From Gemmatimonadaceae bacterium (GTDB taxonomy: Bacteria > Gemmatimonadota > Gemmatimonadetes > Gemmatimonadales > Gemmatimonadaceae), in contig DATLUQ010000029.1 in assembly GCA_035533015.1 (NCBI GenBank), forward strand, positions 1-64,000: DNA of 64,000 nucleotides, written 5' to 3'. Each line of letters starts with the position of its first letter. Positions within the stretch are counted from its first letter, which is position 1. The notes beneath the pieces are model-generated. The model did no database searches. It was not told where the DNA came from and saw nothing but the letters and a program-made list of their open reading frames with translations. A program made the position numbers and the translations under genes. Shown in pieces: positions 8,020-36,349 of this stretch.

Positions 8020-8023
8020 TGCA

Positions 8024-15367: not shown

Positions 15368-16440
15368 GGGACGAGCACCGCGCGTTTGGAGAGCCGCCCA
15401 TGGTGGGCCGCCTCGAACACCGCGTTGATCTCGGACAATCGGTGCCGCTCCACGTACGGCTTCACGGCGAGGCGGCCGTCGGAGATCCACTCCAGTAGCT
15501 CGGGATAGATCTCCGGGTCGGCGCCCCAATTGCCGTGGGCTTCGGCGTCATAGGCCATGAGGTTCGAGAGGCAGATCTCGATCTTGTCCATCGTGTAGCC
15601 AACCACGCCCAGCGACGCGCCGAAGCCGAGCAGCGCGTAGGCGGTCTCCTGGCCGGCCTTCGTGCCGGAGGTCTCGAAGATCTTCCACAGGTGCGGCGGT
15701 GCGCCAAGCGACTCGGCGAGAGCCCGCGCTTGCTTGCGAACGTCCTTGAGCGCCATGCCGCGCACGTCGATCACACCGCGCGCCCCCGCCGCCGTGGCCT
15801 GTTCCAATTTCCGCGCGTCGATGTCGATGGCGACCACCGTTCCCCCCGCCGCGCGCGCCACCTGCACCGCATGCACGCCGATGCCGCCCACGCCGACGAC
15901 CACGGCCAGCTCTCCCGGCTGTAGTCTTGAACGCTTCACCGCCTGGAACGGTGTGGACAGCGCATCGGCCACTACGGCGAGTTCCCAGAGTTCGTGTGTC
16001 GCCATCGCCGCGGGCGGCACCGGACACAGATATCGCGCCGGCACGACGACGTGCGACGCGAAGCCCCCGTGTCGGTCGTTGCCCGGCATCACCTGCTGGC
16101 GGCAAATGGCGCGGCGCCCCGCGCGGCAGAGGTCGCACTCTCCGCACGGAAGCACTGCGGGCACCACGACGGCCTGCCCAACGAGCGACGGGCCGACTCC
16201 GGCGCCCACGGCCCGAACGACGCCGCTGATTTCGTGCCCGAGCACCAGGGGCAATGGGCCGCGCGTCTTGACCCCGCCGTACAGATACGACAGGTCAGTG
16301 TGGCACACGCCGCACCCAGCGACCTCGATCAGCGCCTCGCCTGCCAGTGGCGCGGTCCACGGCAGTTCGATACGGTCCATGGCGCTGCCCGGCGTCGTCA
16401 TGACCCAGGCATCGAAGGTCGTTCCAATCGTCGTCGTCAT
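15364..16440 (-). CDS. had: 6-hydroxycyclohex-1-ene-1-carbonyl-CoA dehydrogenase (Had)
   Basis: A 358-residue zinc-dependent medium-chain alcohol dehydrogenase, start ATG 16440 overlapping the ligase stop. Catalytic zinc ligands are in AGCGVCHTDLSYLYGG (C43, C46 region) and GHE (68-70). A four-Cys structural zinc loop is at C99, C102, C105 and C113. The NAD-binding GVGGIG is at about 193-198. The segment LMAYDAEAHGNWG near residue 300 is the feature that marks Had among alcohol dehydrogenases. Had oxidises 6-hydroxycyclohex-1-ene-1-carboxyl-CoA to the 6-oxo compound with NAD+, the third step of the class I benzoyl-CoA pathway. Other genes of that pathway share the operon, which supports the call strongly. 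Confidence 0.88.
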   Translation of the reverse strand: MTTTIGTTFDAWVMTTPGSAMDRIELPWTAPLAGEALIEVAGCGVCHTDLSYLYGGVKTRGPLPLVLGHEISGVVRAVGAGVGPSLVGQAVVVPAVLPCGECDLCRAGRRAICRQQVMPGNDRHGGFASHVVVPARYLCPVPPAAMATHELWELAVVADALSTPFQAVKRSRLQPGELAVVVGVGGIGVHAVQVARAAGGTVVAIDIDARKLEQATAAGARGVIDVRGMALKDVRKQARALAESLGAPPHLWKIFETSGTKAGQETAYALLGFGASLGVVGYTMDKIEICLSNLMAYDAEAHGNWGADPEIYPELLEWISDGRLAVKPYVERHRLSEINAVFEAAHHGRLSKRAVLVP

Positions 16441-18254
16441 TGGGTCTCTCCGAACATCAGGCTGCCGCACTCGTGGCAGCGATCGAGGGTCTTGGGGCGG
16501 CCGCCGAAGCACGGGCGATCGTCACCGGCTACCCGCAGCACCTTTCGCAGGAAACGGCAATCGCATTCCGCGGAGGGCTGGTAGACGGCCTCGAGGTAGT
16601 CTTCCGCCTCGGCCAGCACGTTGCGCACCCGGACCTTCAGCGACGGCGTCAGCTCCTGGTCCTCGATCGTCAGCTCCTTGCTGATCACCGCCACCGCCTT
16701 GATGTGTTCGTACTTGATGGCGTGCGTGCGGTTGAACTCGGCGATCGTCTCGCGCAGCGAGGCGGCGACCACCCGATCGGCGGTGGCGTGGTCGTGGCCG
16801 AACTCCTCGCCGATTCGGAAGAAGTCGGGGTAGATCAGCGCGCAGAGAAAGTCGCGCCCGCCGCCGGCGACGATCACGTGCCGGATGTACGGGTTCATCC
16901 CGGCCAATCGATTCTCGATCTCGGTTGGTACGACCTTTTCCGCGTTCAGCATTTTGAACACCCGGTCCTTGCGCGCGACCAGCTTGAGCGCGGGACCGAG
17001 CAGCTCGCCGAGATCCCCCGTATGGAACCAGCCGTCTCCGGGAAGCGCTTTGGCCGTGGCCTCGTCGTCGCGGTAATAGCCCCGCATGACGTGCGGACCC
17101 TTGACCAGGATCTCTCCGTCGTCGGCGATTTTCACGGTCACGCCGGGCAGCGGGTAGCCCACTTTGCCAGGTTCGGTGCGCGGCTCGTTGAGATCGGTGA
17201 GCGTGCAGCAGGGAGACGTCTCGGTGAGCCCCCAACCTTCGGCCACGGGAATGTGCCGGGCCGCGAAGAACTCGGAGAGGTTCGTGGGAAGCGGCGCGGC
17301 AGCTGTGAACACGAAGCGCAGTTCGGGATGAAAGATCCGCGCCTCGTCTTCCGGGTGCGACTGGATGTGGGCCACGAGCTGCTGGTACACTTTCGGCACG
17401 CTGAAGTAGATCGTGGGCCGGATCTCCATCCAATTCCGGAGCAATACGTCGAAGTCCCGGCCGTACGAGTCGTCGATGGCGAGCGGGGCGCCGTTGTACA
17501 GCGCGCTGTACTTCTCGAAGATGCCGCCGAAGCTGTGGTGCCACGGCAGGTACGACAGGAAGCGGTCCTCCGGGCCGATGTCCCAGATCGCCGCCAGGGC
17601 CCGTCGCTGCGACAGGATGTTGTCGTGGGTCAATTGCACACCTTTCAGCGCGCCGCTCGTTCCCGAGGTGTACATCATCAGGCACGGCGCGGTGGGATCG
17701 AGCGCCACCCCGCGTTCCAGGAACGCGTGACGGCGCGGGTCGCCCGGACTGGAGCGGAATGGCGCGAGCACGTTCCGGAATTCGGCGAACGTGATCACGG
17801 CGCGAGCGCTGAGCGGGACGCGAAGGCGCGCGCGCCACTCGGCATCGGGCAACACCACTGCCGCGGGCGCCGCGTGGGCCAGCAGGTCGCTCGTCTGGTC
17901 GGGCGAGTAGCCGGCAAACAGCGGCGTGTAGATGGCGCCCAGGCACATCGTCGCGAGTTCTGCCACGAGCATCTCGCCCCGATTGGGCGACACGACGACC
18001 ACGCGGTCGCCGCTCGTAACGCCGAGTTGGTCGAGGTAACGGCCGAAGGCGACGACGTCGTCGACCAGTTCCCGCCAGGTGACGTTCCGGAAGGCGCCGC
18101 CGCGCCTCACGCGGATTGCCGGGCGCGCGCCGTGCCTGGCCGCGTTGCGTTTCATGAATGCGGCGATCGTCTCACTCGTCCCGATGGGCTCGAGCAGCGA
18201 CCGGATGCGATCGCCCTCCCGCACCCCGGCGCGCGCGTGGGTGCCCCGTCTCAT
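16437..18254 (-). CDS. AMP-forming acyl/aryl-CoA ligase with Cys-rich C-terminal tail
   Basis: A 605-residue ANL-superfamily ligase. The start ATG 18254 overlaps the upstream activase stop. Motifs in order: MMYTSGTSGALKG (P-loop A3, about residue 190), LPWHHSFGGIFE, GWGLTETSPCCT (A5), GWFHTGDLGEL (A7) and VPTEIENRL near the hinge. It is closer in style to FadD15-like long-chain acyl-CoA synthetases than to the benzoate-CoA ligases of Thauera, so the substrate is uncertain. Benzoate, 4-hydroxybenzoate, another aromatic acid or a ring-reduced acid would all fit the operon. The last 50 residues are unusual: CDC, a further Cys, then CHECGSLMFG, resembling a zinc-ribbon or cluster-binding tail that ordinary ligases lack. 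It is coupled to had by a four-base overlap. Confidence 0.82.
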   Translation of the reverse strand: MRRGTHARAGVREGDRIRSLLEPIGTSETIAAFMKRNAARHGARPAIRVRRGGAFRNVTWRELVDDVVAFGRYLDQLGVTSGDRVVVVSPNRGEMLVAELATMCLGAIYTPLFAGYSPDQTSDLLAHAAPAAVVLPDAEWRARLRVPLSARAVITFAEFRNVLAPFRSSPGDPRRHAFLERGVALDPTAPCLMMYTSGTSGALKGVQLTHDNILSQRRALAAIWDIGPEDRFLSYLPWHHSFGGIFEKYSALYNGAPLAIDDSYGRDFDVLLRNWMEIRPTIYFSVPKVYQQLVAHIQSHPEDEARIFHPELRFVFTAAAPLPTNLSEFFAARHIPVAEGWGLTETSPCCTLTDLNEPRTEPGKVGYPLPGVTVKIADDGEILVKGPHVMRGYYRDDEATAKALPGDGWFHTGDLGELLGPALKLVARKDRVFKMLNAEKVVPTEIENRLAGMNPYIRHVIVAGGGRDFLCALIYPDFFRIGEEFGHDHATADRVVAASLRETIAEFNRTHAIKYEHIKAVAVISKELTIEDQELTPSLKVRVRNVLAEAEDYLEAVYQPSAECDCRFLRKVLRVAGDDRPCFGGRPKTLDRCHECGSLMFGETQ

Positions 18255-19048
18255 ACCGCGACCTCCGGCCCCACCGAAACGGCACCCTCGCGGGCGGCGA
18301 GCGCGGCGCCGAACGCGCCCATCTCCTGCGGGTGCGGCGGGACGACCACTTCGGCGTGCATATCCTCGCCGAGCAACCGCGCCACGGTCGGATGGTACGC
18401 AACCACGCCGCCGGTCGCGACGACCCGACCCTGCAGCACGTCCATCGCTACCACGCGCTTCACGAGCGATCGGTACGCCGCCATGGCCAGGTCCGAGGGC
18501 CGCTTACCGGCGCGGATGAGCGTGAGCAGCTCCGTGCCGGCGAATACCGTGCAGAAACTGGAGAGTTCCAGGACCTCGGTGGATTGCGCCGCCAGGTGGT
18601 CCAGACGATCGACGCCGATACCCAGCCGGAGCGCGATTTCGTCGAGAAAGCTGCCCGTCCCGGCGGCGCACTTTCTGTTCATGCGATGCGCCAGACGTTG
18701 ACCGTTCGCATCGAGGCGAATGACCTTGGCGTCCTGGCCCCCGATGTCGATGACGAGCAGCGGCCCCTTGACGTAGAACGCCGCGCCGCGGCCGTGGCAG
18801 TCGAGTTCGGTCCGCGAACCATCGGCGAACGGTACGGCTTGGCGGCCGAAGCCGGTGGCCCAGATCGCGCGGACGTCCCCCCGCCCACCGGGCGCACGCG
18901 CGAGGGCGAGGGCCAGCGCTTGCTCCGCCGCGCCGGCCAGATCAGCGCCCGAGCGGACCACGGCGCTCGCCAGCACGCGCGCCTCGTCGTCGATGATGAC
19001 GGCCTTGGTGTTCCACGACCCGCTGTCCACGCCCACGAATCGCTTCAT
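18251..19048 (-). CDS. BcrA/BcrD-type ATPase activase (second reductase module)
   Basis: A 265-residue protein of the BcrAD/BadFG/HgdC ATPase family, start ATG 19048 overlapping the preceding subunit's stop. All family signatures are intact: GVDSGSWNTKAVI (phosphate-1), VIDIGGQDAKVIRL (phosphate-2), RKCAAGTGSFLDEIA (first cluster Cys), SSFCTVFAGTELL (second cluster Cys) and VVATGGVVAYHP. These homodimeric activases carry one [4Fe-4S] cluster between the subunits and use two ATP to push an electron onto a 2-hydroxyacyl-CoA dehydratase- or benzoyl-CoA reductase-type partner. Its partner is most likely the subunit encoded immediately upstream (19045-20280). Of the two extra activases in this operon it is the canonical one. 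Confidence 0.88.
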   Translation of the reverse strand: MKRFVGVDSGSWNTKAVIIDDEARVLASAVVRSGADLAGAAEQALALALARAPGGRGDVRAIWATGFGRQAVPFADGSRTELDCHGRGAAFYVKGPLLVIDIGGQDAKVIRLDANGQRLAHRMNRKCAAGTGSFLDEIALRLGIGVDRLDHLAAQSTEVLELSSFCTVFAGTELLTLIRAGKRPSDLAMAAYRSLVKRVVAMDVLQGRVVATGGVVAYHPTVARLLGEDMHAEVVVPPHPQEMGAFGAALAAREGAVSVGPEVAV

Positions 19049-20280
19049 GCACGCGCTCCAGCCGGCCGCGCGTCGGCGAGTTGCTCGACGAACCCCTCGA
19101 CGTTGGTGCGCACCTGTTCGTCGGAAAAGCACCGGAGGTCGTTGACGTCGCCGTCGAGTGCGAGGGTCGGGATGCCGAGTCGCTCGGCGATCCGCCTCGG
19201 CATGCCGTAGCGCGTGTTCGAATTGTTCGGGCAGGTGCGGCAGTCGTGGAAGACGATGCCGTCCACCTCATAGAGCGCGAGCATGCGCTCGATGTACGCT
19301 TCCTTCGCCTCCTCGGAGCGCACGATGAACAGTTCCAGCGACGCTCGCGCCATCGATCGTATGGGATCGGCCGGATCGAGGGACGAGAAGATCCAACTGT
19401 TGCAATAGGTGGATGCGACGACGGCGGTGCGGAATTCCGCGAACAGCGACGAAAGCGCGCGCAGGCGTCCCCACACCGGCATCCCTTCCCAGTACAGACG
19501 GAACGCCTCACGGGGCACCGCAGCCTGCCCGAGGCGCGCCGCGTCGTCCAACTCGGCGAGCAGCAGCCGGTAGTACTCACACGCCTCAGCCGTGCCGCGC
19601 AACACCACCGCCGGCCCCATGTGGATGGTGCCGTCGAAGAACGTCAGCGGGGCAGGGCGATGGGCGGCCGTACGCAGGCACGCCTCCCAGAGGTCCGAGC
19701 ACTCGCGCGACACGCGTACCGCATCCGCCAGGCGTCCGGCATCCAACCTCGTGCCCGCCACGGCCTCGAGCGTCGGGACCAGGCGCTCGAGCTGTATCGC
19801 GACTCCATCCACGTCGCCGTCGTATACCTCCTCGATCGCTCGCGGCGACCGCACCCCGATCACGGGCACGTTCCAGGCCCGGCCGTACCACTCGAACCAG
19901 TCGCGCACGTCGCGGCACTGGTTGGTGTTGAACACGAGTACGTCGGCCCGCGGTGTTGCGCTCAGGCCGAAGGCGGCGAGCGGCGTCTCGCCCGCCAGGT
20001 ACGCGCCGACGTCACTGGTGAGATACGAACACACGTCCTGTGAATAGCCCTGGGCGTGCGCCAGAGGCATGTAGCGGTTGGCGCTGCGCGCGGTGCCCAG
20101 CATGGCCGCATGATTCTCCGGAAAGAACACCTGGAACCCGAGCGCGCGAAGGAGTTCGGCGGGACCAACGCTCGAACACCAGGCCACGGGCGCGGTCTTC
20201 TGCTCGGCGGCCGCGCCGACCGCGCGGTAATACCGGCCCATCGTGTCCTTGAGCGCCGCGGTGCTCCGTAGCGCCGTCAT
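19045..20280 (-). CDS. 2-hydroxyacyl-CoA dehydratase / BcrB-BcrC-like subunit
   Basis: A 411-residue protein. The start ATG 20280 overlaps the upstream stop, which excludes the long in-frame extension. It has the HgdB/FldB/BcrB architecture with three expected cluster cysteines: C35 (VAWCSSVGPAELL), C84 (YSQDVCSYLTSDVGAYL) and the Cys of HDCRTCPNNSNTRYG near residue 360. PADVLVFNTNQCRDV-type Rossmann segments lie between them. Family members hold a [4Fe-4S] cluster, receive single electrons from an activase, and either dehydrate (R)-2-hydroxyacyl-CoA or reduce aryl-CoA. It is more like the dehydratase side than the BcrB encoded at 33698-34969. It probably pairs with the C-terminal half of the fusion at 21076-23328. 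Substrate unknown. Confidence 0.82.
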   Translation of the reverse strand: MTALRSTAALKDTMGRYYRAVGAAAEQKTAPVAWCSSVGPAELLRALGFQVFFPENHAAMLGTARSANRYMPLAHAQGYSQDVCSYLTSDVGAYLAGETPLAAFGLSATPRADVLVFNTNQCRDVRDWFEWYGRAWNVPVIGVRSPRAIEEVYDGDVDGVAIQLERLVPTLEAVAGTRLDAGRLADAVRVSRECSDLWEACLRTAAHRPAPLTFFDGTIHMGPAVVLRGTAEACEYYRLLLAELDDAARLGQAAVPREAFRLYWEGMPVWGRLRALSSLFAEFRTAVVASTYCNSWIFSSLDPADPIRSMARASLELFIVRSEEAKEAYIERMLALYEVDGIVFHDCRTCPNNSNTRYGMPRRIAERLGIPTLALDGDVNDLRCFSDEQVRTNVEGFVEQLADARPAGARA

Positions 20281-21056
20281 TGGAGGACCTTGAGCGCGGC
20301 GCCGAGCGCACCGGTGTAGATCGCATCGGGGACGGCGCGGGCCTCGACCCCGGACAGTTCCTCGAGGGCGCGGAGCACCCCCGGGAAGAACTCGACGACT
20401 CCGCCGCAGACGACGATGGGATGCGTGAAGCCCCCGATCTCGACGATGCGCTCGGCCACCGAGTGCATGCAGCCGAGAGCGACCGCCTCGCGTGAGGCCC
20501 CCTCGCGCAGCCGCTCGAGTACTTCGCTGCCGGAGAACACCGAGCAATAGCTGCTCACGGGCGCCGGCATCGAGGCCGCGGCGGCGAGTTCCTGCAGCCC
20601 CGCGGGCGCGATGTCGAGGTGGCGGGCGGCGAACATCAAGAAGCTGCCGATCCCGACGGCGCACCGTCGCACGCCGCGCGCGTCCACCCGGCGGCCGTCA
20701 TCACCCACGTGCATCACGTGCGGATCACGGCCGCCGATATCGACCAGCGTCATCGCGTGTGGCGCGTGATGGAACGCGCCGAGGGCGTGGCAGCTCTCCT
20801 CGGTGGCCGTGGTCGTCGCGTCGCGCACGCAGTTCATCGCGAACCCCGTGGCGCCGATGCCCGAGAGGTCGGACGGCTGGAGCTGCGCATCCTCCAGCGC
20901 CGCGGTGAGCACCTCGTAGCTGCACGCCTGGAAATACCCCCGCGTAGGGGCCACCGCGCGCCCGAGAATCCGACCGTCGGCACCGGCGACCACTGCCTTC
21001 ACACACTCCGTTCCGACGTCCACGCCGGCTGCGGCCCTCGCTCCATTTTCCAGCAT
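20277..21056 (-). CDS. Divergent BcrA/BcrD-type activase with altered ATP motif
   Basis: A 259-residue member of the BcrAD/BadFG ATPase family. ATG 21056 has GAGGAG eight bases upstream and was preferred to GTG 21062, which is too close to it. Visible motifs: AGVDVGTECVKAVV (phosphate-1), MTLVDIGGRDPHVMHV (phosphate-2, where the usual GGQDxK reads GGRDPH), RRCAVGIGSFLMFAA (usual CAAGTGxFLE) and SSYCSVFSGSEVLERL (second cluster Cys kept). Both cysteines are present, so a bridging [4Fe-4S] cluster is possible, but the changed phosphate-2 and helix-cluster-helix residues suggest altered ATP use or a structural role. In BcrA/BcrD-type heterodimers one subunit is also more divergent, so it may pair with the canonical activase at 18251-19048. 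Confidence 0.8.
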   Translation of the reverse strand: MLENGARAAAGVDVGTECVKAVVAGADGRILGRAVAPTRGYFQACSYEVLTAALEDAQLQPSDLSGIGATGFAMNCVRDATTTATEESCHALGAFHHAPHAMTLVDIGGRDPHVMHVGDDGRRVDARGVRRCAVGIGSFLMFAARHLDIAPAGLQELAAAASMPAPVSSYCSVFSGSEVLERLREGASREAVALGCMHSVAERIVEIGGFTHPIVVCGGVVEFFPGVLRALEELSGVEARAVPDAIYTGALGAALKVLQ

Positions 21057-21075: not shown

Positions 21076-23328
21076 CTAATGGGCGGCCAACCCCTCGACG
21101 TGTTGCTCGATGAACGCGGACAGCTGGCCCTGCAACCGCTCGGTGGAGAACAGGCGCAGATCGTGCGAATCGGCTTCCAGCACGAACGCCGGAACCCCGG
21201 TGGCGCGCTCCGCCCGTACGGCGAGACCAAACCGCACGTGGCTTGCCTCCGGCGTCGTGCGGCAGTCGTGGTAGACCGCCGCGTCCACCCCGAACTCGTC
21301 GAACTTCGAGGCGAGATACGCCGTCTTGAAGTGCTCCGACCGGTTGCCGAACACGCCGGTGTACGCGCGTGCCATGCTGGCGATCGGGTCATCGGCATCG
21401 AGACCCGGCAGCACGAACTCGCCGCAGAACGTCGAAGCCACGACGGCGACCCCGGCATCGGCGAACAGCCGTGAAAGCGGTCGCAGCGCGCACCAGATGG
21501 GCGGCCCATCCCAGTAGAAGCGAAGCGTCTCGTTGGGGACGGCGCCGATTCCCCGGGCCACGCGATCTTCCAGTTCGTCCTTCAGTTCCCGGTAGTACGA
21601 CACCGCTGTCCGCGTCCCGCGCAGCAGCACCATCGGTGCGAGATGCACGACCGAATCGAAGAAGGTCATCGGCGCGGGCACGGCCCGCGCCAGTGTGAGA
21701 ATGTCGTCCCAGAGCGCACTCGCTTCCCCGCTGTAGCCGACCGTTTCGCTCAGCCGGTCGATTTCGAGCGCACGGCCGGTCGAGCGTTCCAGCCGCGACG
21801 CGAGCCGCAGCAACTGGTCCACGGCGGCGTCGACGTCGATGGGCTCCAGATCGTGCAAGGCCGGCGGTGGATGCAGCCCGTCCACCGGCACGCCGTAATG
21901 CGACCCGTAGAACTCGAACCAGCGCAGAAGCTGGTGGCCGGTGTTGGTACTGTAGACCACGACATCGGGGCGGGGCACGCCGGCAATGCCGTGCGCCGCG
22001 ATGAGCGGACTCGTGCCCTCGAGTAATGCGCCGACGTCGGCGCGCATCGCCGAACTGGCGAACTGCGAGAAGCCGTGGGCCGTGGCGCGCGCGATCGCAT
22101 GGCCGCCCTGTCGGGTCGCCGCGATGAGAGCGGCGTGGTTCTCCGGGAAGTACGGCACGATGCCCAGCGCGCGCACGATCTCCACGGGGCCCAACGCCGA
22201 GCACGCCGCCACGAGACGCGACCGGTCGGCCGAGGCCGCCGCGAGATCGCGGTAGTAGTCCCGCATGAGTTCCTTGAGGTGCCGGGTGCTCTCGAGCGGC
22301 GGCCCACTAGGCGTCATCCCGCCGTCCACGCCGCGCAGCATGGGCGTTCCACCGGTGGGCGGCTGGTCCAGGCCCAACTTCTCGGCGGTCGCCTGCTTGA
22401 GCAGGAATTTCTGGCGCTCGCGCGAATGGATGAAGTCCACGATGGCCCGGTTGTGCGGCGCCGAAAGGCCGAGACGAGCGGCCTCAGCGGCCACCGCGCC
22501 GTTGAGGGCATCCACCTCGGTGCGCTTGCCGCGCGAGAGATCCTGCCACATCGACGGGCGGTTCTTGCCGAGCGCCTTGAGCGAGCCGATGATCGGCCGG
22601 AAGGGATCCTCTTCGTCCACGATCGGGATGCCGCGCGCCCGCATCACTGCGACGATCTCACCGCAGAGGTCGCGCATGAACGTCATCAGGTGCTCGTCGG
22701 CGAGCATCTCACGACAGGTGAGTCCCGTGAGCGCCGACGTCGGATTCACCACGGCGTTGTGCAGCAGCTTCTGCCAGATCGCGTGGTCGACGTTCGGCAC
22801 GACTTCGGTGGCCATTCCGGCGGTCCGGAACACCTCCGCGATCGGCTCGATCTGATCCCGATCCGCGCCGCTGAACGGCGCGATCTGAATGGGTTTGATC
22901 CCCGCGCGATAGTTGAGGCGCCGAGGCCCCGCGTGTTGGATGCTGTGATACGTGATGCCGCACAGCACGCGCTCGGCGCCTACGAGCCCGGCGATCTTCT
23001 CGGCATTGCCGATCCCATTCTGGAGTGAGAGGAACAGCGTCCGCGGCCCGCACGCCGGCAACACGGACCGCACCGCGGCCTCGGTCTCGTACGTCTTCAC
23101 GGCGACGAACACCAGATCGAATGGCGCCAGACCGTCCACGGTGGATACCACGGTCACCGGGACGCACACCTCCTCCTCGCCCATCCGGCTGACGAGCAGC
23201 CCGGCCTCGTTCAACAACGTCGCGCGCGCCGTGTTCACCTCGAGCAGAGCAACATCCTCGCCAGCACGCGTCAGATTCGCGCCCACGAGCCCACCCAGAG
23301 CGCCGGCTCCCACAATCAGCGTTCGCAT
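21076..23328 (-). CDS. Fusion: ketopantoate-reductase-type dehydrogenase + 2-hydroxyacyl-CoA dehydratase-like subunit
   Basis: A 750-residue protein in one uninterrupted frame. Residues 1-310 are a 2-dehydropantoate 2-reductase (ApbA/PanE-like) enzyme: VGAGALGG at the N-terminus, VAVKTYETEAA, the catalytic Lys region IWQKLLHNAVVNPTSAL (K187) and SMWQDLSRGKRTEVDALNG with E271. Residues about 348-750 are a BcrB/HgdB-like subunit beginning LKELMRDYYRDLAAASADRS. Its first cluster Cys is C376 (AACSALGP) and the third is in HDCRTTPEAS. The middle one is absent, since the DVCSYLTSDVG of the partner reads FASSAMRADVG here. KPR-fold enzymes include D-2-hydroxyacid dehydrogenases, so the fusion could join 2-oxoacid reduction with 2-hydroxyacyl-CoA dehydration. 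M338 could serve as an internal start. The function is inferred. Confidence 0.8.
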   Translation of the reverse strand: MRTLIVGAGALGGLVGANLTRAGEDVALLEVNTARATLLNEAGLLVSRMGEEEVCVPVTVVSTVDGLAPFDLVFVAVKTYETEAAVRSVLPACGPRTLFLSLQNGIGNAEKIAGLVGAERVLCGITYHSIQHAGPRRLNYRAGIKPIQIAPFSGADRDQIEPIAEVFRTAGMATEVVPNVDHAIWQKLLHNAVVNPTSALTGLTCREMLADEHLMTFMRDLCGEIVAVMRARGIPIVDEEDPFRPIIGSLKALGKNRPSMWQDLSRGKRTEVDALNGAVAAEAARLGLSAPHNRAIVDFIHSRERQKFLLKQATAEKLGLDQPPTGGTPMLRGVDGGMTPSGPPLESTRHLKELMRDYYRDLAAASADRSRLVAACSALGPVEIVRALGIVPYFPENHAALIAATRQGGHAIARATAHGFSQFASSAMRADVGALLEGTSPLIAAHGIAGVPRPDVVVYSTNTGHQLLRWFEFYGSHYGVPVDGLHPPPALHDLEPIDVDAAVDQLLRLASRLERSTGRALEIDRLSETVGYSGEASALWDDILTLARAVPAPMTFFDSVVHLAPMVLLRGTRTAVSYYRELKDELEDRVARGIGAVPNETLRFYWDGPPIWCALRPLSRLFADAGVAVVASTFCGEFVLPGLDADDPIASMARAYTGVFGNRSEHFKTAYLASKFDEFGVDAAVYHDCRTTPEASHVRFGLAVRAERATGVPAFVLEADSHDLRLFSTERLQGQLSAFIEQHVEGLAAH

Positions 23329-23362: not shown

Positions 23363-24148
23363 TCACCGATTGTGCCATACCGGCCTTCGTTTGCCGAAGA
23401 ATGCCGCGACTCCTTCGTTCACATCGTCGAGCGCCATCAGCTCGTCCAGAAACACGCGCTCGGCTTCGAGCCGCCCGGCCTCGAACGGCCGTCCCTGCAG
23501 TTGCCGCACGAGCCGCACGTTCAGCCGCATCACGGCAGGGCTCGCCCGCCGCAGTTCACCAAGCACCGACGCGAGCGTATCGGTCAATTCCGACGGCGGT
23601 ACGACCCGCGACACGAGCCCCATGGCCGCCATCTCGGCGGCCGGATAGGAGTGCCCGGTGGCCGTGATCTCGACGGCGCGGGCCGGCCCGACGCGCGCTG
23701 ACAGCCACGACACGCCCACCGGCGCGAAGAACCCCAGCCGGATCTCGGGTTGGCCGAACGTCGCCCTGGTGCTGACAAGAAGGATGTCGGCCATGAGCGC
23801 AAGCTCGAAGCCGGCTCCCAGGGCGGGGCCGTCCACCGCCATCACGATCGGCACCTCGCAGGCTCCGAACGCCGAGAACAGGCGGCTGAACGCCGCGATC
23901 ATCGCCGGCGCGTTTTCCGGGCGGTGCTCGCCCACGTCGGCGCCCGCCGAGAACGCGGTGCCGTTCGCCGTAACGGCGATGGCCGCGACCGAGCGGTCCG
24001 CCTGCGCGCGCTCCACGACCGCCGCGAGCTCCGTCATCATGGCGCCGGTGAGAATGTTGAGCGGCGGCGCGTCGAGCGTGACGTGCGCGATCGCATCGCG
24101 CACCTCGTATTGCACCGTCGTCTGGGCCTGCGCCGTGGAGGCCGCCAT
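23363..24148 (-). CDS. dch: Cyclohexa-1,5-diene-1-carbonyl-CoA hydratase (Dch)
   Basis: A 261-residue crotonase-fold protein, close to the roughly 258 residues of known Dch. ATG 24148 is preceded by AGGGG at seven bases. The oxyanion/substrate segment reads TAFSAGADVGEHRPENAPAM, and the GEHRPEN part is a hallmark of Dch (GASVEEHLPDQ in Thauera-type enzymes) not found in ordinary enoyl-CoA hydratases. The catalytic region FGQPEIRLGFFAPVG follows. Dch adds water to the dienoyl-CoA made by benzoyl-CoA reductase, giving 6-hydroxycyclohex-1-ene-1-carboxyl-CoA, the Had substrate. Gene neighbours bcr, had and oah agree. Confidence 0.87.
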   Translation of the reverse strand: MAASTAQAQTTVQYEVRDAIAHVTLDAPPLNILTGAMMTELAAVVERAQADRSVAAIAVTANGTAFSAGADVGEHRPENAPAMIAAFSRLFSAFGACEVPIVMAVDGPALGAGFELALMADILLVSTRATFGQPEIRLGFFAPVGVSWLSARVGPARAVEITATGHSYPAAEMAAMGLVSRVVPPSELTDTLASVLGELRRASPAVMRLNVRLVRQLQGRPFEAGRLEAERVFLDELMALDDVNEGVAAFFGKRRPVWHNR

Positions 24149-24174: not shown

Positions 24175-24924
24175 CTATATGTACTGGCCTCCGTCCACCT
24201 TGATGACCATCCCCGTGACATGCCGGGCCTGCGCGGAGCAGAGGAACGTGACGACCTGCGCCACATCCTCCGGCTCGGCGACGCGGCCAAGCGCTGATTC
24301 CCGCTTTGCGTTGTCCACGATCTCGGCCGGCAGCGCCGCCGTCATCTCCGTGCGCACGAGCCCAGGCGCCACGCAGTTCACGGTGACGCCGGCGCCGCCC
24401 AGTTCGCGGGCCAGCGACTTGGTCAGGGCAATGACCCCCGCCTTCGATGCCGCGTAGTTGGACTGGCCGAACTTCCCGCGGAGCCCATTGATGCTCGCGA
24501 TCGTTACGATCCGTCCACGCCGCTGGGCCCGGAGGATCGGAGCGATGGCGCGGCAGTAGGCGAAGCAGCCCTTGAGGTTGACGTCCAGCACTTCGTCCCA
24601 CTGGAGTTCCGTCATCTTCCAGATCACGGCATCGCGGGCCACGCCGGCATTGGCTACGAGAATGTCCAGCCGCCCGAACTCCTGGCGGGCGGCCTCCACG
24701 CACTCTTCCGCGGCGGCGACGTTCGCGACGTTGGCCTCGAGGACGAGCACCCGCCGCCCGCGCGCGCGGATCCGTTCCGCCACCGCCCGGGCCTCCGTGA
24801 TCGCGCCGGAGTCGACGAGGGCGACGTCACATCCCTCGTCGGCCAGCCCCAACGCGATCGCCGCACCGATGCCGCGCCCGCCACCGGTGATGATCGCCGA
24901 ACGTCCCGCCAGCTCCAGGTCCAT
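24175..24924 (-). CDS. Short-chain dehydrogenase (3-hydroxyacyl-CoA/FabG-like)
   Basis: A 249-residue classical SDR. ATG 24924 has GGGAG upstream and starts 14 bases after the oah stop. TGGGRGIGAAIA (about 13-24) is the cofactor loop, NAG the central motif, Ser of IASING and the YAASK pair complete the catalytic set, and APGLVRTEM follows. The residue at the end of beta-2 is Asp (VALVDSGA), which favours NAD over NADP. In this operon it could oxidise 3-hydroxypimeloyl-CoA or another hydroxyacyl-CoA formed after ring opening, overlapping in role with the HCDH fusion at 36350. Substrate is inferred from context only. Confidence 0.8.
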   Translation of the reverse strand: MDLELAGRSAIITGGGRGIGAAIALGLADEGCDVALVDSGAITEARAVAERIRARGRRVLVLEANVANVAAAEECVEAARQEFGRLDILVANAGVARDAVIWKMTELQWDEVLDVNLKGCFAYCRAIAPILRAQRRGRIVTIASINGLRGKFGQSNYAASKAGVIALTKSLARELGGAGVTVNCVAPGLVRTEMTAALPAEIVDNAKRESALGRVAEPEDVAQVVTFLCSAQARHVTGMVIKVDGGQYI

Positions 24925-24938
24925 CGTGCTCCCGCTCG

Positions 24939-25922
24939 TCAGGCGCCGGAGGCGCCGTTCAGCTTCGCTCCGCACTGGCCGCAGTACGCGAACGCGGAGG
25001 GAATACCCTTGGCCCCGCAGTGCGGGCAGGTGTGCTCGTACGGTCCCCACAGAAACTCACTGCTTCCGCCGTCGGTCGCCCGGCCGCGAATCCCGCGGTA
25101 GTCGATCTTGCGCTTCTCGACGAACGCCTGCATGCCTTCGTAGGGTTCGAGCGTCGTGAAGTGCGTGGACAGCCAGTCGCGGGCGTGGCCGATGGTCGCG
25201 AACCACGCCGACTCCTTCCAGTAATTCACCTGTTGCTTGGTATAGCGCGTGCACTCGGGGAACGTGTTCAGAAGCTTCTGCGCCAATTCGTTCACCGTGT
25301 CGTCGAGTTGCGCCCGCGGCACCACGCGGTTCACCAATCCCCACTCCAGGGCCTGCGCCGCCGGAATGCGCGGGTTGAGGAACAGCATTTCGCGCGCGCG
25401 CCGATCGCCCACGTGGATCGACAGCCACTGCGTAGCGCCGCCGGCCGCCACACTGCCCACGCTGGATCCCACCTGGCCCAGATAGCAGTCGTCGGCCATC
25501 ACGGCGAGGTCGCACGCGAGCTGCGACTCGTTCCCGCCGCCCACCGCCATCCCGTTGATGCGCGCGATCGTCACCTTGCCGCTGCGGAAGATCGATTCGA
25601 TGTAGCGGCTGAACAGACCCATGTACTTGAAGTATTCGTGAGGCCGCTTCGTGTAGACCGACGCGTATTCTTTGACGTCGCCTCCGGTGCAGAACGCTTT
25701 CTCTCCAGCGCCAGTGTACACGATCACCCCTACCTGGTCGTCTTGCGACGCGTCGTCGAACGCGCGAATCAGCTCCCGCAGCGTGTCGGTGGTGTACGCG
25801 TTGTAGGCTTCTGGGCGGTTGATCGTGATCCGGGCGACGTAATCCTTCTTGTCGTAGAGGATGTCCTTGAAATCCATGCTGCGAGGCGATTTCGAAGTGA
25901 AGTAGTCGATGAGCGAGGTCAT
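24939..25922 (-). CDS. oah: 6-oxocyclohex-1-ene-1-carbonyl-CoA hydrolase (Oah), short form with zinc-ribbon tail
   Basis: A 327-residue crotonase-family protein. ATG 25922 is chosen although no good ribosome site is visible; M16 (25877) is the alternative. The block VIVYTGAGEKAFCTGGDVKEY, followed by PHEYFKYMGLF and INGMAVGGGNE, closely matches Oah/BamA ring-opening hydrolases (TGAGDKAFCTGGNTKEY...EYxxYMxLF) and differs from enoyl-CoA hydratases. Oah adds water across the C=C and hydrolyses the ring C-C bond, giving 3-hydroxypimeloyl-CoA. Known Oah enzymes are near 377 residues. This one lacks about 50 internal residues and instead ends in CPHCG...CGQCG, a zinc-ribbon-like tail. Functional assignment is good, but the short core deserves checking. 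Confidence 0.78.
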   Translation of the reverse strand: MTSLIDYFTSKSPRSMDFKDILYDKKDYVARITINRPEAYNAYTTDTLRELIRAFDDASQDDQVGVIVYTGAGEKAFCTGGDVKEYASVYTKRPHEYFKYMGLFSRYIESIFRSGKVTIARINGMAVGGGNESQLACDLAVMADDCYLGQVGSSVGSVAAGGATQWLSIHVGDRRAREMLFLNPRIPAAQALEWGLVNRVVPRAQLDDTVNELAQKLLNTFPECTRYTKQQVNYWKESAWFATIGHARDWLSTHFTTLEPYEGMQAFVEKRKIDYRGIRGRATDGGSSEFLWGPYEHTCPHCGAKGIPSAFAYCGQCGAKLNGASGA

Positions 25923-25954
25923 GTGGTAGGTCTGGTTGGCGTCAGCCCGATGGT

Positions 25955-27169
25955 TCAGTGCGTGGTCACCTTCACAACGACCGCCGCCGCCGAATCGCCG
26001 GCGGCGCATCCGGTGAACAGGCCGTATCCTCCGCCCTGATTCACCAGGTCCTCCACGAGTTCGATGATCGCTCGCAGCCCGGTCGGGCCTTGGGGATGGC
26101 CCCAGACCAGCGAAGACCCGAACCGGTTCATCATTTCCGGGTCGAGGTGCAGGGAGCGGGACAGCAGGACGTCGTTCACCGCGAACGGATTGTGAGTCGT
26201 GGTGCTCGCAAGTTGGTCGGCGCCGATGCCCGCCCGCGCCAACGCCATCTGCGCCGCCGGGACGATGGCCATGGGCATGAAGCCCGGCTTCACGCGCGCC
26301 TGGCCGTACGAGAGCAGTCGGACCTCGACGTGCTCGTTGCGCGACAGCGCACGCGCGCGATCGCGGCTCCCGGTGAGCACCATGCCGGCACTGCCGTCGG
26401 CCGGATGCGTCTGGGTGCCGAACGTGACGCTCCCGCCCTCGGCGACCGGCCGCAGCGCGGCCAATCCGCTCGCCGTGGTCGGGAATACACCCTCGTCGTC
26501 TTTGATCGTGGCTGCGACCTTCTTGCCGCGCTTGACCTCCACGGGCCGCACCATGAATCGGCCGTGAAAGGCGCCGTCGTCGGCCAGCGCACGGGCGTAC
26601 TGTGCGTACCGCAACAGCGTCATCTCCTCCTGCGCCTGGCGCGTGATCGCGCATTCGCGGGCGACGTTCTCAGCCGTCTGGAGCATCGAGTTCTTGGCGT
26701 ACGGATCGTGGCCGAAGCTGTCGAGCACCAGGTCCTCGTGCTCCCCCGTGCCGCCGGCGCCGCCGGGATTGGGGTAGTACACGTGCGGCCCGTTGCTCGT
26801 TCGGTCGGCGGCCACGGCCAGGTACACGCTGGCGCTCCCGGTAGCCAACTCCTGCGCGCCCTCCACCACGCACCGCGCCGACGTGGCGCAGGCCTGATTG
26901 ATGGTCGGACCACTGACGTGGCCGAGCCCCGCAAGCCCGGCAAACCACGGCGCGCCGTAGAACGAGCCCTTGCTCGGCACCGTCGTGCCAAGGCTCATGC
27001 CGTCGATGTCGCTCGGCGCGATGCCCCGCTCATCGAGCGCCCGGTGGGCCAGCTCGGCGGCAAGCGGAATTGGCGCGAGGTTCGCAAACGAACCCTGCCA
27101 CGCGCAGAACGGCGACGACCAGTAGCCGCCGTAGGGAATATAGATGCTCTCGAATTGCATATCGCTCAT
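25955..27169 (-). CDS. Thiolase (acyl-CoA acetyltransferase)
   Basis: A 404-residue thiolase, start ATG 27169 overlapping the tetR stop. Active-site nucleophile Cys in INQACATSARCV (about residue 90), His in TTTHNPFAVND, WGHPQGPTGLR as the GHPxGxxG segment, and a second Cys in FTGCAAGDSAAAVVV. The C-terminal motif is CAAGD rather than the CIGGG of classical acetyl-CoA acetyltransferases, which points to a specialised thiolase. In context it would cleave 3-oxopimeloyl-CoA to glutaryl-CoA and acetyl-CoA after Oah and 3-hydroxyacyl-CoA dehydrogenase. Substrate is inferred. Confidence 0.83.
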   Translation of the reverse strand: MSDMQFESIYIPYGGYWSSPFCAWQGSFANLAPIPLAAELAHRALDERGIAPSDIDGMSLGTTVPSKGSFYGAPWFAGLAGLGHVSGPTINQACATSARCVVEGAQELATGSASVYLAVAADRTSNGPHVYYPNPGGAGGTGEHEDLVLDSFGHDPYAKNSMLQTAENVARECAITRQAQEEMTLLRYAQYARALADDGAFHGRFMVRPVEVKRGKKVAATIKDDEGVFPTTASGLAALRPVAEGGSVTFGTQTHPADGSAGMVLTGSRDRARALSRNEHVEVRLLSYGQARVKPGFMPMAIVPAAQMALARAGIGADQLASTTTHNPFAVNDVLLSRSLHLDPEMMNRFGSSLVWGHPQGPTGLRAIIELVEDLVNQGGGYGLFTGCAAGDSAAAVVVKVTTH

Positions 27170-27801
27170 CGTTTGCGCACTCCATTCAGAATCAGATCGA
27201 TCATCTCCGTGCCGATCTCCTCGACCGTGCCGAACCGGGCCGGGTCGTACCACATGAAAATCCAGTTCAGCATGCCGAACACGAACAGCGCCGCGTGGCG
27301 GCTGCGCCGCGACCGGCCGTCACCCTTCTCGCCCATCAAGGCGCTCACCGCGCTGGTCATGAGTTGGTAGTACCGCCGCCGCAGCGCCTCCGTGGCCTCG
27401 TACCGTTCGCCCTGCAGCGAGGCGAGTTCGTAGGTGCACACCTTGAGCTCGTTCGGATGGCTGGTGAAGAACGCGAGGTGCCCGATCACCAGGCGGCGCA
27501 ACCGCTCCTCCGGGGTACCGGACACCGCCGCGCGCTCCTCCTGCGCCGCGAGCAGCGCCGCGAACGTCCGGTACTGGATCTGATAGAGCAACTCCTCTTT
27601 GGAGTCGAAGTAGTGGTAGAGGCCGGCGAGACTCACCCCGAGCGCGCGGCTCACGTCGCGCATGGATGTCGCCTCGAATCCCTTGTCGGCGATCAACCCA
27701 GCCGCCGCTTCGAGAATGGCTTCCAGCTTCTGTTGCGTCGCGGCCCGGGGACCCCGACGGCGTGGGGCGGTGGACGTGCCGCCGTTGCTGCTTGGATTCA
27801 T
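27166..27801 (-). CDS. TetR-family regulator inside the benzoyl-CoA operon
   Basis: A 211-residue regulator. The N-terminal helix-turn-helix is at about residues 35-75 (ATSMRDVSRALGVSLAGLYH, YFDSKEELLYQ), and the C-terminal all-helical ligand domain is of the kind that binds acyl-CoA in many aromatic and fatty-acid degradation repressors. Start and stop both overlap neighbours by four bases, so it is cotranscribed with the pathway and probably autoregulated. The palindrome at 36215-36232 over the two divergent promoters is its best operator candidate. The likely inducer is benzoyl-CoA or a pathway CoA ester, by analogy with PaaR- and FadR-type TetR proteins. The acidic/basic N-terminal leader (APRRRGPRAATQQ) is normal for the family. 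Confidence 0.85.
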   Translation of the reverse strand: MNPSSNGGTSTAPRRRGPRAATQQKLEAILEAAAGLIADKGFEATSMRDVSRALGVSLAGLYHYFDSKEELLYQIQYRTFAALLAAQEERAAVSGTPEERLRRLVIGHLAFFTSHPNELKVCTYELASLQGERYEATEALRRRYYQLMTSAVSALMGEKGDGRSRRSRHAALFVFGMLNWIFMWYDPARFGTVEEIGTEMIDLILNGVRKR

Positions 27802-30677
27802 CGGCTCGGAGCTCCCTCGGTCGGCCGCACGACTGACAAGAGGTCGCGCGCCGCGGCCGGTGACGTCGCGCGCTGTCTGAGGCCATGCAGAATCTTTTCC
27901 GGTGTGATCGGAAGTTCGGTAACGCGAACGCCGCAGGCGTCGTAGATGGCGTTGGCGATGGCACCGAGCATGGGAAGCAATGAGCCCTCGCCGATTTCCT
28001 TGGCGCCGAACGGCCCGCGCGGCTCGTAGCTCTCCACGGCCACAGACCGCACCTGAGGCGCGTCCCAGATCGTGGGGATGAGATAGTCGTGCAGGTTGGG
28101 GTTCACGAGACGCCCGCCAGCGCCGACGACCGTATCCTCCATCAACGCTTCGCCGAGCCCCATGATGACGGAGCCTTCGACCTGGCCGTGAAACGTGAGC
28201 GGATTGATCACCGTGCCGGCGTCGCTGAAGTCCGTGACCCGGTCGACGGTCACGAACCCCGTTTCGAGATCGACCGTGACCTCGGCCACCGCCGTAGAGA
28301 AGCTGTAGGCGGGCGACGTGCCCACCGTGCTCCCCTTGAATCCGCCGCCGAGGTCCTTGGGCGGTTGGTAGGAGCCGGTGCCCACGATCGGGCCATGCTT
28401 GGCGAACGCCAGCCGGCCGGCAGCCGCCCAGTCCATGCCCACGTCAGGGAACTGCTGCACGAATATCCGGCCGCTCCGCGCGACGAGGCCGCCCACATCG
28501 CACGCCAGCGCCCGCGCCGCGGCCTCGAGCACCTGCCGTTTGACGGCGAGCGCCGCTTCGCGCACGGCGTTGCCCGCCATGAGCGTGACGCGGCTGGAAT
28601 ACGAGCCGAGATCCAGTGGGCTCAGGGTCGAATCGCACTCCGCCATCCATACCCACTCGAACGGCACGCCCAGCTCTTCGGCGGCGATCTGCACGAGCAC
28701 CGTGTCCGATCCCTGACCGATCTCCGCCGCGGCGATGTGCAACGACACGGCCGTGCCATCCTCATGCACGCGGATCATGGCGTTCGAGTGGGGAAAGTCG
28801 GAGCGGTAGATCGGATATCCGGCGCCGGACACGAAGCCGCCGCTGCCCACGCCGATCCCTTTGCCCGGCGGCAGATGGCCACGCTTGGCTCGCCAGTCGG
28901 TGGCCTCGCGCGCCTGCTCGAGCGTGCGCGTGAATTCGCACGACGACACGTCGAGGTCGTTCACCGTGCGCGTATTGGGCTGCATCGCATTCTTGAGCCG
29001 GATGTCGATCGGATCCATGCCCAGCTCTCCGGCGATCATGTCGAGGAGCGACTCGAACGCGAATCGCGGCTGCGGAACCCCGTGCCCCCGGAACGCTCCG
29101 CTCGCCGGTAGATTCGTGTAGACGCGCACCCCGTCGTACTTGTAGTGCGGCATCCGGTACAGCGTGGGGAGCATGGACCCGGCGTAGTACGCCGTGATCA
29201 CCCCGAACGATGTGTACGCGCCGCCGTCGAGCACCACGCGCTGCTGCACCGCGGTGATCGTCCCGTCGCGCTTCACGCCGATCTTGAGGTCTATGGTCTG
29301 CTTGTGCCGGCCGCGGAAGTGCCGGAACATCTCCTCTCGCGTGTATTCCATGAGCACCGGCCGGCCGGTCTTGCGCGACAGAATCGCGGCGCAGAAGTCC
29401 AGCGGCGTCGCCTCGGCCTTGGCCCCGAACCCGCCACCGACCGCGGGACGGATTACGCGGATGTTGCCCATCGGAATGCCGAGTGTGCGCGACAGCGACC
29501 GGTGCAGGTAGTGCGGCGTCTGCGTCGAGGACCACAGGGTGAGGCGGTCGCCGTGGGCCTCCCATTGGGCGAGCGCGGCGTGTGGCTCGAGCGGCGCCTG
29601 ATAGGTGCGGTTGCCCACGAAACGCTGCTCGCGCACGAGGTCGGCCTCGGCGAATCCCTGCGCGACGTCGCCGAAGTGCCACTCGACCCGCGTGTTCACA
29701 TTGTTGGCGTAGCGCGGACGCTCGGGATGGATCAGTGGCGCGCCGGGCGCCATCGCCGCATCCGCGTCGAAGACGGCCGGGAGTTCCTGGTAGTCCACTT
29801 CGATCAACGCCAGCGCGCGCTCCGCCGTCGCCTCGTCCACCGCGGCCACCGCGGCCACCTCGTCGCCGATGTAGCGCACTCGCTCGCGCGCGAAGATCTG
29901 CTCGTCCTCTCGCGCCGGGCTCACGCCATACCACGTGTCGGGCACGTCGGCGGCCGTGATCACCGCGAGCACGCCAGGCAGCGCCCGCGCCTTGGTGGCG
30001 TCGATCCGCGTGACGATCCCGTGCGCGATCGGACTGCCAAGAATCTTCCCGAAGATGGTGCCCGGCGGGCGATAGTCCGCCGTGTACTTCGCGCGCCCCG
30101 TGACCTTGTCCGGCCCGTCGTAACGGGTCACCCCGTGTCCGACGATCGCATGATCGCGCTTCTGATCGCGCTCACCCTCGTCGTGCGGGCGCGCGTCGAG
30201 CGGCACGCCGTCGAACTCCCACCACGACCGCACGGCGCGGATCATCCGCGGGTACGTGGCGCAGCGGCAGAGATTCCCACTCAGCGCGTCCTTGACGTCG
30301 TCCTCACTCGGCGACGGATTGCGGTCGATGAGCGCCTTGGCCGACATCAGCGCCCCCGCGGTGCAGAACCCGCACTGCAGCGCGCCGTGCTTGACGAACG
30401 CTTTCTGCAGGGGATGCAGGTCGCCGCCCGTCGCCAGACCTTCTACGGTCGCGATCGCCTTGCCGTCCGCCTCCACGGCGAGCTGCAGGCAGGCGTTCAC
30501 CGGCTCGCCGTCCACGTGCACCGTGCACGCACCGCAGTCGCCCGTGCCGCAGCCGCGCTTGGTGCCGGTGAGACCGAGTTCATCGCGCAGGACGGCGAGG
30601 AGCGTCGTCTCGGGAGCGACCGCCACCGTGTGGGGCTCGCCGTTCACGTCAAGGTGTACGAGCTGCCCCGCCGTCAT
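27798..30677 (-). CDS. Molybdenum hydroxylase, fused [2Fe-2S] and Mo-cofactor subunits (Hcr/xanthine oxidase type)
   Basis: A 959-residue protein. Residues 1-165 are the small iron-sulfur subunit with two [2Fe-2S] motifs: GCGTGDCGACTVHVDGEPVNAC, and CGFC...CRC. Residues about 190-940 are the molybdopterin subunit: DKVTGRAKYTADYRPPG, AVGGGFGAKAEATP, ASGAFRGHGVPQ, and GPFGAKEIGEGSLLP with the catalytic glutamate. In xanthine oxidase and 4-hydroxybenzoyl-CoA reductase (Hcr) these are separate chains or part of a three-domain chain; here the two are fused and the FAD subunit is separate (30674-31558). In a benzoyl-CoA operon the obvious candidate is 4-hydroxybenzoyl-CoA reductase, which removes the para-OH. 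Hydroxylation of another aromatic is possible. Start ATG 30677 overlaps the FAD gene's stop. Confidence 0.85.
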   Translation of the reverse strand: MTAGQLVHLDVNGEPHTVAVAPETTLLAVLRDELGLTGTKRGCGTGDCGACTVHVDGEPVNACLQLAVEADGKAIATVEGLATGGDLHPLQKAFVKHGALQCGFCTAGALMSAKALIDRNPSPSEDDVKDALSGNLCRCATYPRMIRAVRSWWEFDGVPLDARPHDEGERDQKRDHAIVGHGVTRYDGPDKVTGRAKYTADYRPPGTIFGKILGSPIAHGIVTRIDATKARALPGVLAVITAADVPDTWYGVSPAREDEQIFARERVRYIGDEVAAVAAVDEATAERALALIEVDYQELPAVFDADAAMAPGAPLIHPERPRYANNVNTRVEWHFGDVAQGFAEADLVREQRFVGNRTYQAPLEPHAALAQWEAHGDRLTLWSSTQTPHYLHRSLSRTLGIPMGNIRVIRPAVGGGFGAKAEATPLDFCAAILSRKTGRPVLMEYTREEMFRHFRGRHKQTIDLKIGVKRDGTITAVQQRVVLDGGAYTSFGVITAYYAGSMLPTLYRMPHYKYDGVRVYTNLPASGAFRGHGVPQPRFAFESLLDMIAGELGMDPIDIRLKNAMQPNTRTVNDLDVSSCEFTRTLEQAREATDWRAKRGHLPPGKGIGVGSGGFVSGAGYPIYRSDFPHSNAMIRVHEDGTAVSLHIAAAEIGQGSDTVLVQIAAEELGVPFEWVWMAECDSTLSPLDLGSYSSRVTLMAGNAVREAALAVKRQVLEAAARALACDVGGLVARSGRIFVQQFPDVGMDWAAAGRLAFAKHGPIVGTGSYQPPKDLGGGFKGSTVGTSPAYSFSTAVAEVTVDLETGFVTVDRVTDFSDAGTVINPLTFHGQVEGSVIMGLGEALMEDTVVGAGGRLVNPNLHDYLIPTIWDAPQVRSVAVESYEPRGPFGAKEIGEGSLLPMLGAIANAIYDACGVRVTELPITPEKILHGLRQRATSPAAARDLLSVVRPTEGAPSR

Positions 30678-31558: not shown

Positions 31559-31566
31559 GCTGGGTC

Positions 31567-36263: not shown

Positions 36264-36349
36264 TAGCGACTTTTCGGCGCCTGGTACTTTCTGGGTGCCT
36301 TACCGCCGTCCTGCGCCTCGGCCCGGACGGCAGGAGTAAGGGTGCGGCC

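Follow-up and report, generated by a model that had tools for sequence, protein, structure and literature searches.

A ketopantoate reductase-type domain fused to a predicted clusterless 2-hydroxyacyl-CoA dehydratase-like subunit in bacterial benzoyl-CoA gene clusters

The window, a 64,000-nucleotide stretch of DNA from a Gemmatimonadaceae bacterium, carries a benzoyl-CoA gene cluster in which one open reading frame joins a ketopantoate reductase (KPR) domain to a 2-hydroxyacyl-CoA dehydratase-like (HGD-D) domain (Table 1). This frame runs uninterrupted on the minus strand from an ATG at 23328 to a stop at 21076. The initial annotation, which gave no strand, had read both domains in a single frame, and profile searches bear this out: Pfam places ApbA at residues 4–153, ApbA_C at 179–303 and HGD-D at 381–742 (E-values 1e-33 to 1e-47, all scores well above the curated cut-offs), and TIGR00745 (apbA_panE) gives 255.9 bits, above its cut-off of 141.

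Transcription on the minus strand proceeds from the Mo-hydroxylase genes through those for the TetR regulator, thiolase, Oah-like crotonase, SDR, Dch-like hydratase, fusion, Act2, HgdP, Act1 and AMP-forming CoA ligase to Had, with stop and start codons overlapping by 4 bp from Act2 to Had. Upstream of the fusion run lie the class I benzoyl-CoA reductase genes, with BcrB, BcrC and BcrD above their equivalog cut-offs and BcrA slightly below. The gene order is constant in Gemmatimonadota, whereas in other phyla HgdP and Act1 often stand in a separate run beside a different CoA ligase.

Table 1 Features of the fusion locus and its neighbourhood in the window
Feature	Position	Strand	Evidence or remark
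Had, 6-hydroxycyclohex-1-ene-1-carbonyl-CoA dehydrogenase	15364..16440	-	TIGR03201 440 bits, cut-off 339
AMP-forming acyl-CoA ligase	16437..18254	-	Profile matches; Cys-rich tail at end
Act1, canonical BadF/HgdC-type activase	18251..19048	-	Profile matches
HgdP, intact HGD-D partner	19045..20280	-	All three cluster Cys present
Act2, activase paralogue	20277..21056	-	Two cluster Cys kept; DIGGQD.K motif degenerate
KPR::HGD-D fusion ORF	21076..23328	-	750 aa; Pfam, TIGRFAM and homologues
Predicted clusterless HGD-D domain (HGDf), residues 345-750	21079..22296	-	Cluster-Cys positions are S425, G464, T692
Inter-domain linker, residues 307-344	22297..22410	-	Variable length; pLDDT <50 at 315-341
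KPR domain, residues 1-306	22411..23328	-	GAGALGG, E30, N104, K187, N191, N195, S259, E271; fold match
Dch-like enoyl-CoA hydratase, directly upstream of fusion	23363..24142	-	Profile
SDR dehydrogenase	24175..24927	-	Profile
Oah/BadI/MenB-like crotonase, divergent ring hydrolase candidate	24939..26081	-	Profile; start codon provisional
Thiolase	25955..27172	-	Profile; start codon provisional
TetR regulator	27166..27801	-	Profile
4-Hydroxybenzoyl-CoA-reductase-like Mo enzyme	27798..31573	-	Gamma-alpha fused, plus FAD subunit without extra FeS loop
Class I benzoyl-CoA reductase BcrC-B-A-D	31567..36114	-	Equivalog profiles
FadB-like 3-hydroxyacyl-CoA dehydrogenase/enoyl-CoA hydratase	36347..38371	+	Profile

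The Mo enzyme resembles 4-hydroxybenzoyl-CoA reductase in its alpha subunit (930 bits, cut-off 995). Its FAD subunit, however, is matched better by XdhB and, unlike the homologue at a Myxococcota locus (L142), has no Cys-rich [4Fe-4S] loop, so that the electron donor or reaction of the enzyme may differ. The Oah-like hydrolase ends in a CxxC...CxxC tail. In Gemmatimonadota and one Eisenbacteria genome it falls far short of the Oah cut-off, whereas other fusion genomes have a canonical Oah. In the FadB-like protein the 3-hydroxyacyl-CoA dehydrogenase precedes the enoyl-CoA hydratase, the reverse of the order in Escherichia coli FadB. Elsewhere in the window (6676–9286, plus strand), an Nramp-type transporter gene overlaps a gene encoding PRC-barrel, MgtE_N and CBS domains in which a transporter domain was not detected.

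One scan of genome contigs yielded 37 loci that encode relatives, in metagenome-assembled genomes (MAGs) labelled Gemmatimonadota, Acidobacteria, Krumholzibacteriota, Eisenbacteria, Myxococcota/Myxococcales, Anaeromyxobacter and Deltaproteobacteria. The frame is uninterrupted at every independent locus with a contig spanning the junction, which rules out an assembly artefact or frameshift; because the same open frame recurs in MAGs of several phyla, the fusion is genuine. GC3 stays at 0.85–0.93 across the junction, and the linker varies from 38 to 61 amino acids among homologues. In an AlphaFold2 model built with the 37 homologues (mean pLDDT 87), residues 315–341 are disordered. The artefact that the initial annotation had allowed for is thus contradicted by intact independent frames, a variable linker and high GC3. 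Its other reservation, that the homologues might always be two separate genes, fails because fused homologues recur; three Myxococcota do have a standalone KPR. Finally, Met occupies the position of M338, which had been suggested as an internal translation start, in 30 of 37 homologues. Shine-Dalgarno matches precede it in 10 of those 30, whereas about 24% of random codons have such a match, as do 33 of 37 at M1; with matches only at background, a conserved internal start is unsupported.

The amino-terminal half is a member of the KPR/ApbA family, with ApbA, ApbA_C and TIGR00745 scores above cut-off and the catalytic Lys, Glu and Asn in place. GAGALGG, K187 and E271 are present as first annotated. 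Across the 37 homologues N104, K187, N191, N195 and E271 are invariant, while at position 259 there is a Ser in 32 sequences and a Thr in five. Foldseek matches for this half are KPRs and NADH-dependent D-mandelate dehydrogenases. An acidic residue at the end of beta2 usually indicates NAD(H) rather than NADP(H). That position, which we take to be the 2′-phosphate position of the KPR cofactor site, is E30 here and is Glu in 35 of 37 homologues, Asp in one and Thr in one; judged by this residue, the domain is probably NAD(H)-linked.

These features bear on whether the KPR domain could simply be the PanE of the organism, serving pantothenate synthesis and fused by chance. A second full-length KPR was not found in the genome of the window, as such a role would have it, but several other fusion genomes encode one. 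The catabolic cluster with its TetR gene, the rarity of the fusion among Gemmatimonadota genomes (about 5%) and the NAD-type residue E30 also stand against this explanation, which we regard as highly improbable.

The carboxy-terminal half, HGDf, differs from known catalytic subunits at precisely the residues that hold the cluster. The [4Fe-4S] ligands of BzdO are Cys95, Cys128 and Cys380, with identical coordination in HadB, and its acid/base residue is Glu65 (PMC11971306). Alignment of HGDf to HadB and BzdO sets the ligand positions, which in the 37 homologues are occupied by S/N, G and T/A/S; a Cys occurs at one of these positions in six of the 37 sequences and at two in none. These counts were made on clean sequences, with antisense-frame rows (L004 and L090–L098) excluded from Cys comparisons. 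In contrast, C88, C126 and C354 of HgdP, which is 44% identical to HGDf, are invariant (C-C-C in 28 of 28 unique homologues). The Glu65 equivalent is kept in both proteins, as E396 of the fusion (37 of 37) and E59 of the HgdP slice, and many other HGDf residues are invariant over the 37 sequences. Because the cluster cysteines are lost in HGDf and kept in HgdP, the fusion resembles a pseudo-subunit beside an intact one. Judged by these residues, HGDf holds no cluster and is excluded as the radical site; the cluster-bearing subunit is the separate HgdP. The suggestion that the fusion sets a hydride-transfer domain beside a radical enzyme therefore has to be corrected, as the fused half is not the one that would carry the cluster.

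Both HGD-D proteins resemble dehydratases more than reductases. The best Foldseek match for HGDf is HadB (3o3m; TM-score 0.93–0.94 by target length), followed by 3-methylbenzoyl- and benzoyl-CoA reductase subunits at about 0.82–0.85, and HgdP scores 170 bits to HadB versus 98 to MbdO. Against the BcrB and BzdO equivalog models the fusion scores 113 and 67 bits and HgdP 137 and 69, where the cut-offs are about 487 and 449. The domain first annotated as BcrB/HgdB-type is thus HGD-D, with a remote likeness to BcrB (113 bits) and all three cluster cysteines missing. Relative to a 2-hydroxyacyl-CoA dehydratase, HgdP has the three Cys ligands of the catalytic subunit, whereas HGDf lacks the cluster residues of a HadC-like second subunit. 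The cysteines of a double-cubane cluster are absent from HgdP and HGDf in the alignments.

Besides the three ligands, C39 and C297 of the HgdP slice are also invariant; both of these cysteines lie near the active-site region and are absent from HadB and BcrB. They are out of register with the extra cysteines of BcrC-type subunits, and a double-cubane cluster was rejected on this ground. Selenocysteine in HgdP homologues was also rejected, as the TGA that had seemed internal is the true stop just past the alignment end. More distant HadB-like proteins in Myxococcota (L082, L083, L084 and L089; 33–38% identical to HgdP) are paired with an activase, some with an adjacent HadC-like gene, and their neighbours are kinase, PEGA, sigma-54 and ABC/transporter genes rather than catabolic ones.

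The activases show a parallel asymmetry. Act1 and Act2 both score above the TIGR00241 cut-off, and the cluster Cys pair is invariant among the homologues of each, so that an ATP-dependent activase with conserved cysteines accompanies HgdP. The DIGGQD.K motif is kept in Act1 and lost in Act2. With HGDf lacking the cluster and Act2 lacking this motif, each pair has one degenerate partner. Act2 has a conserved E-C-x-K (C33 in 29 of 30) where Act1 has the usual ATP-loop residues.

The fusion is carried by uncultured bacteria from soil, sediment and groundwater that belong to several phyla, in clusters serving the anaerobic degradation of aromatic compounds. Benzoyl-CoA genes had already been described in MAGs of Krumholzibacteriota and Gemmatimonadota (PMC10936416, PMC10581226). 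The fusion occurs in 15 of the 298 Gemmatimonadota genomes drawn and in 7 of 195 in the Myxococcota group. HgdP is present in all 15 Gemmatimonadota fusion genomes and, at that threshold, in no fusion-less one. BcrC is above cut-off in 17 of 23 fusion genomes. Three without a class I benzoyl-CoA reductase (G066, G072 and G076) encode proteins matching Geobacter BamB at 814–1067 bits, which excludes the fusion complex as their sole benzoyl-CoA reductase. Since the module is found beside benzoyl-CoA reductases of both class I and class II, it is not itself the reductase; it accompanies benzoyl-CoA reduction whichever class is present, and is most likely peripheral to it.

The fusion, HgdP, Act1 and Act2 might still form a second, divergent aryl-CoA reductase with the KPR domain as hydride donor, as their layout of two HGD-D subunits and two different activases within a benzoyl-CoA cluster recalls BcrABCD. 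We consider this improbable, given that a true BcrABCD or BamB is also encoded, that the partner subunit lacks the double-cubane cysteines, that benzoyl-CoA reductase equivalog scores lie far under cut-off and that the nearest fold is HadB.

The origin of the module can be traced through relatives in which the KPR is not fused. In three Myxococcota genomes (G330, G334 and G335), a standalone KPR that is 61–62% identical to the fused one lies in the order Dch-KPR-Had, and HgdP-Act1 and CoA ligases are encoded elsewhere, usually divergent from FadB. These operons place the KPR at the operon position of the fusion but differ in that it is unfused, with no Act2 or HGDf inserted ahead of Had. In trees, the fused KPRs form one clade, sister to the standalone Myxococcota KPRs, and HGDf and Act2 each form one clade (support 1.0) on a long stem, sister to HgdP and Act1, respectively. 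The simplest account of these trees and gene orders is that HgdP and Act1 were duplicated jointly and inserted between KPR and Had, and that the HgdP copy then fused to the KPR and lost its cluster. Non-fusion genomes have HgdP without an adjacent second HGD-D gene, which suggests that it may act there as a homodimer, and other Myxococcota, with HgdP and neither fusion nor close second HGD-D subunit, indicate that HGDf is not strictly needed, which counts against the proposal set out below.

In Myxococcota, some benzoyl-CoA/HgdP clusters encode, alongside HgdP, Act1 and ligases, a KPR of a second subfamily (L142 1981–2916, L145 3521–4501 and L146 7204–8226), 27% identical to the fused KPR. KPR is apparently a regular, unrecognized member of such clusters in this phylum.

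The ancestral order Dch-KPR-Had, the clusterless HGDf and the long, disordered linker could also mean that the KPR serves ring degradation itself, with HGDf attached only for assembly or co-regulation. Every step of the ring pathway already has an enzyme, however, the second-subfamily KPRs recur with HgdP-Act1-ligase genes and a passive tail would not need the many invariant residues of HGDf. We therefore judge this unlikely, while the location of the KPR between Dch and Had, which would fit ring degradation too, counts against our own proposal.

In that proposal, which we hold to be evenly balanced between right and wrong, the fusion would be one subunit of a redox-plus-dehydration module feeding the benzoyl-CoA pathway. 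HgdP, as the catalytic subunit with one [4Fe-4S] cluster, would pair with HGDf, whose part would be structural, in docking or in CoA binding. As in 2-hydroxyacyl-CoA dehydratases, a heterodimer of Act1 and Act2 would inject a single ATP-activated electron. Reduction of a 2-oxoacid by the KPR domain would give the (R)-2-hydroxyacid, which the neighbouring CoA ligase would convert to its thioester, and HgdP, by its predicted activity as an (R)-2-hydroxyacyl-CoA dehydratase, would yield the 2-enoyl-CoA, which FadB, SDR and thiolase could carry by beta-oxidation to the aroyl-CoA. The substrate is probably an arylpyruvate, to judge from gene content; the likeliest are 4-hydroxyphenylpyruvate (from tyrosine) and phenylpyruvate, which would pass through coumaroyl- or cinnamoyl-CoA to 4-hydroxybenzoyl-CoA and benzoyl-CoA.

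The L142 locus carries on a single strand genes for a ligase, second-subfamily KPR, FadB, thiolase, 4-hydroxybenzoyl-CoA-reductase-like subunits (one of them a beta subunit that has the Cys-rich loop), HgdP, Act1 and SDR. This is the set needed for converting 4-hydroxyphenylpyruvate through coumaroyl-CoA to benzoyl-CoA. Furthermore, three unrelated CoA-ligase types interchange beside HgdP-Act1, as expected if the HgdP substrate is the CoA ester of a free acid. An Anaeromyxobacter locus (L042) has an indolepyruvate:ferredoxin-oxidoreductase-like gene and a phenylacetate-CoA ligase nearby. Against the aryl reading, we identified no aminotransferase or arylpyruvate-specific gene in the cluster. 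The intervening CoA ligation also counts against the proposal, as it leaves the benefit of the fusion unexplained. The initial idea that the fusion couples 2-oxoacid reduction to dehydration remains the best fit, given the split and second-subfamily KPRs in HgdP/activase/ligase/FadB clusters, but only as far as the pathway goes: a KPR acting on the free acid needs the ligase step before the dehydratase, and direct channelling is not implied.

The strongest named rival runs these steps in reverse, as part of the lower pathway. HgdP would hydrate glutaconyl-CoA to (R)-2-hydroxyglutaryl-CoA, an ADP-forming ligase would save ATP, an NAD-linked KPR would oxidize 2-hydroxyglutarate to 2-oxoglutarate, and 2-oxoglutarate:ferredoxin oxidoreductase would supply low-potential electrons for benzoyl-CoA reduction. 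Such a scheme accounts for the link to benzoyl-CoA reduction regardless of reductase class, and it agrees with the acidic NAD-type residue and with the ADP-forming ligase beside HgdP-Act1 at several loci. Nevertheless, dehydration is the normal direction of 2-hydroxyacyl-CoA dehydratases, the ligase in the window and at L142 is AMP-forming and feruloyl-CoA-synthetase-like, and the L142 operon unites HgdP with 4-hydroxybenzoyl-CoA-reductase-like genes, FadB and thiolase. We give this scheme little credence.

A fuller version of the redox-plus-dehydration proposal can be put forward more tentatively, as somewhat less probable than not. It envisages a heterodimer of the HAD/BCR type, new in architecture, in which one subunit has permanently lost its cluster, carries a nicotinamide dehydrogenase and works with a degenerate activase, so that 2-oxoacid reduction and ATP-driven radical dehydration would take place in one complex. 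In anaerobically living bacteria of at least five phyla, aromatic amino acids or aryllactates would thereby reach benzoyl-CoA by an unrecognized reductive route. The radical reactions of the HAD/BCR family rank among the hardest known, and a second subunit that is conserved yet clusterless, with a diverged activase of its own, would reveal the purpose of the second cluster. The characterized two-subunit members discussed in a published account have clusters in both subunits, and single-cluster BzdNO variants made by mutation were reported to be unstable (PMC11971306); compared with these, the fusion module would be a natural single-cluster system. It also marks a candidate route by which phyla represented almost solely by metagenomes may break down aromatic amino acids anaerobically.

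We found no description of a KPR/HGD-D pairing in one protein in the open-access literature searched, and within that scope the initial statement that no such protein had been described holds. The fusion module is best classed as a new variant within the HAD/BCR family. With HadBC-HadI ((R)-2-hydroxyisocaproyl-CoA dehydratase) and FldBC-FldI (phenyllactyl-CoA dehydratase) it has in common the HGD-D fold with a three-Cys [4Fe-4S] catalytic subunit, an ASKHA activase with two conserved cysteines and, we infer, the pathway logic from 2-oxoacid through 2-hydroxyacid and CoA ester to enoyl-CoA. It differs from them in its second subunit, which is a clusterless, KPR-bearing paralogue of HgdP rather than HadC, in its two different activases and in its benzoyl-CoA cluster setting. 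With class I benzoyl-CoA reductase (BcrCBAD, BzdNOPQ and MbdONPQ) it shares the superfamily and the complement of two HGD-D subunits and two activases, but it lacks a double-cubane subunit, scores far below the equivalog cut-offs and stands beside a separate, real benzoyl-CoA reductase or BamB. Finally, the fused KPR shares fold and catalytic residues with ketopantoate reductase and with the D-mandelate dehydrogenases of this fold, which are NADH-linked 2-oxoacid reductases, and is set apart from both by its joining to HGD-D, its acidic residue at the end of beta2 and its place in an aromatic catabolic operon.
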